Under the pieces are notes generated by a model. It ran no database searches. It worked only from the letters and a program-made list of their open reading frames with translations, and was not told the DNA's origin. The translations under genes were made by a program, and so were the position numbers. Of a DNA stretch of 64,000 nt, positions 29,642-32,503 are shown piece by piece. Source of the stretch: Gaiella occulta (GTDB lineage: Bacteria > Actinomycetota > Thermoleophilia > Gaiellales > Gaiellaceae); contig NZ_QQZY01000004.1 of NCBI RefSeq assembly GCF_003351045.1, forward strand, positions 62,001-126,000, given 5' to 3'. Within the stretch, counting starts at the first letter, position 1; every line of letters starts with the position of its first letter.

Positions 29642-30781
29642 TCAGGTCAGCGTGGGAGCGCCCGTCGGCAGCCAGTCGACCCTGCCGATCCAGCGCTCGC
29701 GGTTCTCGGCGTACCAGCGGATCGTCTGCAGCAGCCCTTCCTCCCACGACACCTTCGGCGCCCAGCCGGTCTCGCGGGTGAGCTTCTCGTGGCCGACGCG
29801 CAGCGCCATCACGTCGCTCGCGCCCGGCCGGTAGCGCTTCGGCGTCGTCGTCACGGTGCGCCCGGCGGGCCAGAAGCCGTGCTCCTCGCCGATGCGGAGG
29901 ATCATCTCGACCCAGCCGGCCATCGAGATGTTCTCACCCTGCCCGTAGACGTAGACGTCGCCCGGCTTGCCGTGTGCCGCGACGGTGAGGTGCCCGCGTA
30001 CACCGTCGCTGCAGAAGCAGAAGTCGCGCAGCGGCTCGAGGTTGCCGAGCTCGATCGTCTCGCGCGTGAGCGCCTGCGTGATGATCGTGCCCGTCACGTA
30101 GCGCGGGTTCTGGCGCGGCCCGTAGTTGTTGAACATGCGCGTGACGACGCCGGGCACGCCGAACGCGTCGTGGTAGTTCATCGTCAGGAAGTCGGCCGCC
30201 ACCTTGGCGGTGGCGTAGATCGACTTCGGGTTGATCGGCGAGCGCTCGTGCAGGATCAGGCCGCCCGCATCGTCGAAGTCGTGGTGGTGGGAGACGTCGT
30301 CGCGCACGTTCCCGTACTCCTCCGAGGTGCCGGCGGTGTCGAACTTCTCGAGCTCGAGCCCCCAGTCGACGATCGACTGCAGCAGGTTGAGCGTGCCCAC
30401 CGTGTTCGCCATCACCGTCTCGTAGGGGCGATGCCACGACTCGCCCACGTGCGCCTGCGCGCCCAGGTGGAAGACGTAGGGCCTGTCCGGCGCCTGCTTC
30501 AGCTCGCGGACGAGGTAGTCGATCGAGGTGCGGTCGGTGAGGTCGGCGAAGTGCACCTCGAGCCGGTTGCGGAGGTGCCCGATGTTGTTGAGCGCTCCGC
30601 TCGAGGTGGCGCGCACGAACGCGTGCACGTTCGCCCCGAGCTCGACGAGCGCGTCGGTGAGGTGGGAGCCCATGAAGCCGTCGGCGCCGGTGACGAGCAC
30701 GGTGCGGCCGGAGTAGGCGTCCCCGAAGTCGGCCCGGAGGTGGTCGAGAGCCTGCCGGCTCCAGATCATGTTCGTGGGCAC
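29642..30781 (-). CDS. NAD-dependent nucleotide-sugar dehydratase, GDP-mannose 4,6-dehydratase-like
   Basis: A 379-residue extended SDR. VTGADGFMGSHLTDAL binds NAD, TAGTSEEYGNV gives the Thr-Ser-Glu active-site group and SIYATAKVAADFL the YxxxK motif; RMFNNYGPRQNPRYVTGTIITQAL follows. The sequence is not the classic GMD (no GQDGSYL start), so CDP- or dTDP-hexose dehydratase cannot be excluded. The link to GDP-L-fucose synthase favours GDP-mannose. GTG 30781 is preferred to ATG 30769 because TACGCT ends 7 bases upstream of it. Confidence 0.83.
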   Translation of the reverse strand: MPTNMIWSRQALDHLRADFGDAYSGRTVLVTGADGFMGSHLTDALVELGANVHAFVRATSSGALNNIGHLRNRLEVHFADLTDRTSIDYLVRELKQAPDRPYVFHLGAQAHVGESWHRPYETVMANTVGTLNLLQSIVDWGLELEKFDTAGTSEEYGNVRDDVSHHHDFDDAGGLILHERSPINPKSIYATAKVAADFLTMNYHDAFGVPGVVTRMFNNYGPRQNPRYVTGTIITQALTRETIELGNLEPLRDFCFCSDGVRGHLTVAAHGKPGDVYVYGQGENISMAGWVEMILRIGEEHGFWPAGRTVTTTPKRYRPGASDVMALRVGHEKLTRETGWAPKVSWEEGLLQTIRWYAENRERWIGRVDWLPTGAPTLT

Positions 30782-30788
30782 GCGGGCA

Positions 30789-30794
30789 AGCGTA
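30789..30794 (-). promoter_or_regulatory. TACGCT -10 hexamer, leaderless promoter
   Basis: On the minus strand TACGCT is followed by 7 bases and GTG 30781. It is divergent from the TACCTT box at 30825-30830. Confidence 0.5.
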
Positions 30795-30824
30795 GCCGGT
30801 TCGGCGTCCCTCCTCCGGCTGCGA

Positions 30825-30830
30825 TACCTT
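30825..30830 (+). promoter_or_regulatory. TACCTT -10 hexamer, leaderless promoter for a six-codon ORF
   Basis: TACCTT is followed by 6 bases and ATG 30837. That ATG does not start the methyltransferase but a short ORF that ends on its start codon. Confidence 0.5.
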
Positions 30831-30836
30831 CGCGCG

Positions 30837-30857
30837 ATGACCGCGGAGGGCCGTTGA
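30837..30857 (+). CDS. Six-codon upstream ORF (MTAEGR), coupled to the methyltransferase
   Basis: ATG 30837 begins six codons and a TGA at 30855-30857. The stop shares bases with the TTG start at 30854 (TTGA), the geometry used for termination-reinitiation in the surrounding operons. The TANNNT box 6 bases upstream makes the ATG the likely first codon of a leaderless transcript. A GGAGGG run (30845-30850) inside it may help reinitiation. A chance occurrence is possible. Confidence 0.45.
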   Translation: MTAEGR

Positions 30858-31753
30858 CTTCCCACCTGAGGGCGCTGTGGGTGCTCGAGCGAGTCGCCGG
30901 CGCGCTTCGGCGCGTCGGCCTCGGCGCGATGGTCGACGCGGTCGGTCGGCGCATCGCTCCGACCGTCGGCACGTTCGACGTCGAGATCGACGGGCTCCGG
31001 CTGCACGGCGATCACATCGGCCAGCTCTACTACGTGCGTGAGCTGCTCCAGTCGGATCGGGAAGGGGCGTTCGTCGAAGCGCTCTGCGCCTCGATAGAGC
31101 GCGGCGCGACGGTCCTGGAGGCAGGTGCGCACATCGGGTACGTCACGCTCCAGGCCGCACGAGCCGTCGGCGGGAGCGGCAGGGTGATCACGTTCGAGCC
31201 CAATCCCCGGACGGTTCCGCTGATCGAGCGGAGCCTGGCCGCCAACGGGCTCACGGACCGTGTCACCCTCGTGCCGCTCGCGCTCGGGGATGCCGCCGGC
31301 CGGCACGTCTTCCACATCAGCGGCGGCGGTGACACGAGCAGCCTGCACCGGCCCGACGGAGATTCGCAGCAGGTCGAGGTCGAGGTCACCACGGTGGACG
31401 AGTGGCTCGATCAGGAGGTGCGCGTCGACGTCGTCAAGCTCGACATCGAGGGCGGGGAGGTCGCCGCACTCCGGGGCATGCGACGAACGCTCGAGCGCGC
31501 CGGGCCGGGACTGATTGTCTTCGCGGAGTGCAACCCCGGGATGCTCGAGCGGGCCGGTAGCTCGAGCGAGGAGCTGTTCGCGACGCTTCGCTCCCACGGG
31601 CTCGAGATCATGTGGATCGACGAGAGCCGGAGGATGCCCCGACCTCTCGAGGAGGCGGACTGGTCGCACGGCTACGTCAACCTCTTCTGCCGGCGCGCCG
31701 CAAGCGGTCGCGGCCGCGACTTCGGTCCCGATCGGGCGGCGAGCCGTAGCTGA
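30854..31753 (+). CDS. FkbM-family methyltransferase
   Basis: A 299-residue SAM-dependent methyltransferase. TVLEAGAHIGYVTLQAARAVG is the SAM-binding motif I, VITFEPNPRTVPLIERSLAANG motif II, and VDVVKLDIEGGEVAALRGM is the FkbM hallmark with the KxDIEG sequence. Such enzymes O-methylate sugars or polyketide side chains; a sugar is likely here. TTG 30854 is the only workable start I found, with GGAGGG 3 bases before it and a six-codon ORF ending on it. It is divergent from the dehydratase gene. Confidence 0.88.
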   Translation: MTSHLRALWVLERVAGALRRVGLGAMVDAVGRRIAPTVGTFDVEIDGLRLHGDHIGQLYYVRELLQSDREGAFVEALCASIERGATVLEAGAHIGYVTLQAARAVGGSGRVITFEPNPRTVPLIERSLAANGLTDRVTLVPLALGDAAGRHVFHISGGGDTSSLHRPDGDSQQVEVEVTTVDEWLDQEVRVDVVKLDIEGGEVAALRGMRRTLERAGPGLIVFAECNPGMLERAGSSSEELFATLRSHGLEIMWIDESRRMPRPLEEADWSHGYVNLFCRRAASGRGRDFGPDRAASRS

Positions 31754-31821
31754 GGCTGCGGGTCGCTGATGCGGAGCGGGAGTCGGTCGAGGTCGCGGCG
31801 GTGCAGCTCGGTACGGCTGAC

Positions 31822-31827
31822 TATGGT
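31822..31827 (+). promoter_or_regulatory. TATGGT -10 hexamer, leaderless promoter
   Basis: TATGGT is followed by 7 bases and GTG 31835. It supports that start over an ATG at 31769 that would add 22 arginine- and serine-rich residues unlike a methyltransferase N-terminus. Confidence 0.5.
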
Positions 31828-31834
31828 CTGTGCC

Positions 31835-32503
31835 GTGACGCGGCATCCGTCCGAACCCTGGGCGGGGGGCTACTACGGCCAGAGCCGGCCGGAGTTGGTC
31901 GCCCTCCTGCCTCGTCCGCTCGGGCGGGTCCTCGACGTCGGCTGTGGCGAAGGCCGAGTCGCAGCAGGCCTTCGAGCCGCGGGCGCGTCGTGGATCACCG
32001 GCGTCGAGATCCACGCTCCCTCTGCCGAGCGGGCGGCGCGCTCGCTCGACGAGGTCTTCGTCGGCCGCCTCGAGGAGCACATCGGCGGATTCGACGGGGT
32101 GTTCGACACGATTCTCCTCTACGACGTCCTCGAGCACCTGCCCGATCCCGCCTCGGCCCTGGTGGCGCTGCGGGGCGTCGCGGCGCCGGGGGCGCGCGTG
32201 CACGTGTCGCTCCCGAACGCCCGCCACTGGTCGCTCGTCCGCGACCTGGCCCTCAGGGGCACGTTCGGCTACACGGACGCGGGGCATCGCGACCGCACCC
32301 ACCTTCGCTGGTTCACCCGACGCGACATCGTCTCGTTGCTGGAGCAGTGCGGGTGGCACGTCGAGCGTGTCGACCACCTGCCCCTGCGGCGCGTATCGGC
32401 ACTCGCCTCGCGACTTACCTCGGGGCTGACGGCGGAGTTCCTCGTGTACCAGTGGTTTCTGCTCGCCCGGTCGCGTGAAAGTGCGCCGGAAGGCGCCCGC
32501 TGA
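31835..32503 (+). CDS. Class I SAM-dependent methyltransferase
   Basis: A 222-residue methyltransferase. GRVLDVGCGEGRVAAGLRAAG is motif I, TGVEIHAPSAERA motif II, DTILLYDVLEHLPDPASALVAL the post-II region and VSLPNARHWSLVRDLALRG motif III. The LPNARHWS and LRWFTRRDIVSLLEQCG pieces fit the methyltransferase group found with glycosyltransferases. The target is probably a sugar or a lipid-linked glycan. Its last 89 bases overlap the end of the convergent GT2 gene. Confidence 0.86.
   Translation: MTRHPSEPWAGGYYGQSRPELVALLPRPLGRVLDVGCGEGRVAAGLRAAGASWITGVEIHAPSAERAARSLDEVFVGRLEEHIGGFDGVFDTILLYDVLEHLPDPASALVALRGVAAPGARVHVSLPNARHWSLVRDLALRGTFGYTDAGHRDRTHLRWFTRRDIVSLLEQCGWHVERVDHLPLRRVSALASRLTSGLTAEFLVYQWFLLARSRESAPEGAR

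Follow-up and report, generated by a model that had tools for sequence, protein, structure and literature searches.

A six-codon ORF lies directly upstream of a gene coding for an FkbM-family methyltransferase in the window (the whole stretch of 64,000 nucleotides that was analyzed), and its stop codon overlaps the start codon of this gene. It is likely, from its layout, to be a member of the class of coupled leaderless small ORFs already known from mycobacteria. In the reading we prefer, to which we give about an even chance, this mini-ORF would be a passive ribosome-delivery start: The 5' end of the mRNA would lie at its ATG, ribosomes would have two entry routes, and the arrangement would be an evolutionary variant of the directly leaderless start found in relatives of the gene. 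Most likely, it is neither a sensor nor a throttle.

Organization of the start region

The features of the region are listed in Table 1. The layout described in the initial annotation, TACCTT followed by six bases, an ATG frame and a TGA which shares bases with a TTG start, is found exactly in the sequence between positions 30825 and 30857. The spacer between TACCTT and the ATG at 30837 is CGCGCG. With six codons the mini-ORF falls inside the 5–50 codon range of Shell et al. 2015, it is not annotated as a gene. Its junction with the methyltransferase gene is TTGA rather than RTGA: The four-base overlap is the same, with a TTG start. A feature overlooked by the initial annotation is the GGAGG inside the mini-ORF, whose center is placed 7 bases, and its end 4 bases, before the TTG at 30854.

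Table 1. Position, strand and supporting evidence of the features found around the mini-ORF (numbering of the window).
Feature	Position	Strand	Evidence
Divergent gene of the NAD-dependent sugar-nucleotide 4,6-dehydratase type, leaderless-type GTG start	29642..30781	-	Pfam PF16363, E 2e-64; NCBIfam matches below equivalog cut-offs
TACGCT, -10 box for the GTG start of the divergent gene, 7-base spacing	30789..30794	-	In-frame leaderless list, start 30781
-10 hexamer TACCTT (TANNNT), putative methyltransferase promoter	30825..30830	+	Sequence; TANNNT 6–7 bases before in-frame starts enriched genome-wide
Leaderless-type mini-ORF of six codons, ATG ACC GCG GAG GGC CGT TGA (MTAEGR*)	30837..30857	+	Sequence; ATG at commonest leaderless spacing
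Shine-Dalgarno (SD) sequence GGAGG, within the mini-ORF	30845..30849	+	Sequence; SD-like core commoner in coupled starts
TTGA, TTG start overlapping the mini-ORF stop TGA (30855–30857)	30854..30857	+	Sequence; homologue N-termini here or one codon upstream
FkbM-family methyltransferase, 299 aa, TTG start	30854..31753	+	Pfam PF05050, E 3e-21; TIGR01444, E 6.6e-29
TATGGT, -10 box for the next methyltransferase gene (GTG at 31835), 7-base spacing	31822..31827	+	In-frame leaderless list
Next gene, class I methyltransferase, own leaderless-type promoter	31835..32503	+	Family profile searches; leaderless list

The frame opened by the TTG codes for the FkbM protein and ends at 31753. The assignment of this protein to its family is clear: TIGR01444 gives 101 bits (cut-off 37.7) and PF05050 gives 76.7 (cut-off 22.7). 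The gene is divergent from its neighbor, so it needs a promoter of its own. On its + strand, the stretch from the start of the divergent gene to the ATG at 30837 contains no TANNNT other than TACCTT. These two facts, together with the spacing peak of leaderless genes described below, suggest that transcription of the methyltransferase gene probably starts at or near this ATG. A scan for the sigma-70 consensus gave no match, since it demands a -35 box, and scoring with a promoter weight matrix added no discrimination to that given by TANNNT itself.

The two neighbors also have leaderless-type promoters. Those of the divergent gene and of the mini-ORF are placed back to back (30779–30839): The GTG at 30781 and the ATG at 30837 are just 55 bases apart, and both -10 boxes (30789–30794 and 30825–30830) are found between them. 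The next methyltransferase probably starts at the GTG at 31835, preceded by TATGGT and 7 bases, rather than at the ATG at 31769 which opens the longest ORF.

Leaderless signature of the genome

According to Zheng et al. 2011 (PMC3160421), leaderless genes led by TANNNT account for over 20 percent of the genes of Actinobacteria. The organism studied here appears to belong to this phylum, as the best matches of its RpoB fragment are a group of RNA polymerase chains from Streptomyces and mycobacteria. We have read about 1.22 Mb of the own genome in stretches, a first sample of 823 kb and 400 kb which were held out. A codon model, seeded on known genes, was used for gene calling, and the distance of TANNNT before ATG or GTG was measured. 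With about 0.56 sites per kb of strand, approximately one per 1.8 kb, the hexamer is rare. In the first 823 kb it is found 6 and 7 bases before in-frame starts at 69 and 41 sites respectively, compared with about 1–7 at distant spacings. The peak is sharp, 6 bases is the commonest spacing, and there is a shoulder up to 9 bases. The held-out 400 kb show the same peak, with 48 and 27 sites, and so do two related genomes (G004 and G024). Leaderless genes of this genome are thus marked by a TANNNT at 6–7 bases from their in-frame start. GGAGG is also above background at its gene starts, at spacings of 4–10 bases.

Homologues of the methyltransferase

A protein search was carried out in 40 relatives, six of them of the same genus, and then in class and phylum samples of about 400. 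The methyltransferase gene is absent from every genome of the same genus that was searched. The nearest homologue (L002, 48 percent) belongs to another family of the same order. Searches of genome contigs, viral contigs and plasmids found only distant FkbM proteins. A DNA search with the 241-base start region against 399 relatives found only the own genome and short chance matches of GC-rich sequence.

The nearest homologue aligns without gaps from the TTG of the window, and the start of another (L037), also aligned without gaps, falls at the TTG position too. In two others (L038 and L039) the start is one codon before it, by ungapped extrapolation. Such coincidence of N-termini makes the TTG a well supported protein start of the methyltransferase.

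The initial annotation proposed to look in related genomes for the ATG, its frame and the overlap. A leaderless ATG is in fact present at the nearest homologue (TACCCT, 7 bases, ATG ACC GCC AAG), but there the gene itself begins with it, in frame. The starts of L038 and L039 are of the same direct kind, with TAAGGT and TAGGGT respectively, followed by 6 bases and an in-frame GTG AGC. None of the homologues has the mini-ORF: Those with a recognizable promoter (these three) are directly leaderless, in frame. By the criterion which the initial annotation set itself, this counts in part against its interpretation. Changes of initiation mode between orthologues have been described by Zheng et al. 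2011 (PMC3160421).

Coupled small ORFs in the genome

In order to count similar cases, a coupled ORF was defined as one opened by an out-of-frame ATG or GTG at a spacing of 6–7 bases and terminating on NTGA at the start of a gene; expected counts were derived from spacings of 11–25 bases. Nine coupled ORFs are found in the 1.22 Mb of the own genome, while about 2.0 are expected (Poisson p 2e-4), or 8 against 2.0 when the discovery site is left out (p 0.001). Seven of them are found in the first 823 kb, where about 0.9 are expected. The held-out 400 kb contain 2 against 1.07 expected, a weak result. As for the relatives, G004 has 1 (1.33 expected) and G024 has 3 (0.67 expected). The excess is thus clear in the first sample and weak in replication, so there is an appreciable chance that any given case, including the present one, is accidental. 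The chance rate is about 0.1 coupled ORF per 64-kb window.

An SD-like core is found in 6 of the 9 coupled starts and in 19 of 192 directly leaderless starts (Fisher p 1.3e-4). As a group, coupled starts are therefore not bare starts which rely on reinitiation alone. Two other coupled genes of the own genome code for a PHP-like protein (C1:521344) and an MFS-like transporter (C1:500748), named by eye. Some of their relatives are directly leaderless, and none of those examined has a coupled ORF. A gene for RNase J with a coupled ORF was also considered as a test of conservation. It was dropped: It is an extra paralogue, whose identity to the copies of all relatives is only about 50 percent. This second, divergent copy is located outside the window, at about 244394–246117 of contig C4 of the own genome (loci L050 and L051), the other copy is at C2:198032. 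Upstream of the C4 copy there is a leaderless-type ORF of 19 codons which ends on GTGA, with a strong SD. In a different part of the same assembly, also outside the window (contig C1, about 329540–332185), a DnaB-like helicase gene appears by eye to contain an in-frame intein between SGCLAGETPVYL and IVHNSIEQDADLVMF.

Translation of the methyltransferase

According to the delivery reading, the TACCTT promoter would produce an mRNA beginning at the ATG at 30837, or within a base or two of it. In the first route, a ribosome would bind the 5'-terminal AUG, translate six codons and terminate on UUGA. The GGAGG it has just crossed would keep the terminating ribosome in place, allowing it to restart on UUG. 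The second route would be ordinary SD-led binding within the 17-base leader. A ribosome placed on the AUG would cover both the SD and the UUG, so we infer that ribosomes on one mRNA would use the two routes in turn. The sequence shows the layout and the SD, and comparisons show the family of the protein, the genome-wide leaderless signature and where the TTG falls relative to homologues. From these we infer where transcription starts, that the mini-ORF is translated, that ribosomes are handed over and that no regulatory role is involved. Loading on the ATG followed by hand-over at TTGA, as suggested in the initial annotation, is plausible and fits the promoter architecture. On the other hand, the ribosome was said there to reinitiate at a weak TTG, while the TTG need not depend on reinitiation, since GGAGG is found at a workable distance.

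Two points count against delivery: The SD alone could explain translation of the methyltransferase, and the enrichment of coupled ORFs is weak in the held-out sequence. The gene may simply be SD-led, with a short 5' leader of about 17 bases or less, and its ATG would be there by chance, its translation having no effect. We regard this as a possible explanation, although the less probable one. The spacing of GGAGG is within the range enriched at gene starts, out-of-frame ATG or GTG codons at the leaderless spacing are only modestly above chance, and there is little coupled excess in G004 and G024. However, such an explanation leaves it to coincidence that the distance of the ATG is the one most common among leaderless starts and that its ORF ends exactly on a start codon. 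Furthermore, mycobacterial ribosomes initiate at an RTG placed at the 5' end (PMC4633059), so that, if transcription starts there, one would not expect the ATG to be left untranslated.

Coupled mini-ORFs might also be transient intermediates between leaderless and SD-led initiation, a more general idea which we consider rather unlikely. A few bases gained between a leaderless promoter and its gene would put the two out of frame; a 5' RTG with an ORF ending on NTGA, plus a new SD, would then preserve translation of the gene.

It is improbable that a one-base deletion, either real or due to an assembly error, masks an ordinary leaderless gene (MTAEG-x-LTSHL...). One extra base would join the frames of the ATG and the methyltransferase, the relatives of this gene have a directly leaderless start which is in frame, and the genome is a draft in 34 contigs, with no match to 16S rRNA in its assembly. 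A missing 16S rRNA is common in metagenome-derived genomes. Nevertheless, homologue N-termini are found at the TTG or at the codon before it, not six codons upstream. A well-placed SD would be unexpected if the start were directly leaderless (10 percent of genes with such starts have one), and an error within any given 17 bases is rare.

The initial annotation suggested that the mini-ORF keeps synthesis of the methyltransferase low or makes it responsive to translation conditions. Its layout resembles that of coupled uORFs, and leaderless initiation responds to the state of the ribosome in other bacteria, which counts in favor of such a role, but we find it very improbable: MTAEGR contains no run of any special or sensing codon, RNA folding of the 5' region is no stronger than that of shuffled sequences (z-scores 0.2 to 1.0), the mini-ORF is not conserved in homologues and the SD permits independent initiation. 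With no sensing codons, no structure beyond shuffles and no conservation, nothing points to regulation.

Taken alone, the delivery start adds modestly to annotation, by placing the likely 5' end of a single message. If true, it means that the architecture of coupled leaderless small ORFs is not confined to mycobacteria but is found in a further actinobacterial lineage, and with TTG as the start. Together with its directly leaderless relatives, it would also be a concrete case of a gene changing its initiation mode.

Comparison with known systems

The initial annotation mentioned leaderless uORFs in mycobacteria, but no case like the present one. In fact, coupled leaderless small ORFs with an RTGA overlap were already described by Shell et al. 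2015 (PMC4633059), who found them over-represented in mycobacteria. For leaderless initiation in these bacteria, it is both necessary and sufficient that transcription starts at an RTG. A role in ribosome delivery is proposed in a 2025 review (PMC12548453). The small ORFs of Mycobacterium tuberculosis and M. smegmatis share with our case a 5' RTG (here at a predicted 5' end), an ORF of 5–50 aa and a TGA which overlaps the next start (NTGA); their peptide sequence is unconserved (PMC4633059). Here the downstream start is TTG instead of RTG, the lineage is a different actinobacterial one, and homologues lack the coupled linkage itself.

Regulatory leader peptides and attenuator uORFs are recognized by conserved sensing codons or by alternative structures, neither of which is found here. 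The polycysteine attenuators (Canestrari et al. 2020), in the account cited in PMC9094748, have a leaderless short ORF upstream as in our case, but MTAEGR has no run of cysteine or of other sensing codons, and no attenuator structure was seen.

Short uORFs involved in translational coupling (PMC12548453) present the same four-base overlap between stop and start, with the SD inside the upstream ORF. Their upstream ORF has SD-led entry, while here entry would be leaderless. Finally, the genes described by Zheng et al. 2011 (PMC3160421) have TANNNT about 10–12 bases before the start, as is the case here, and their orthologues differ in initiation mode. In our case both signals are found at one gene, joined by the mini-ORF.
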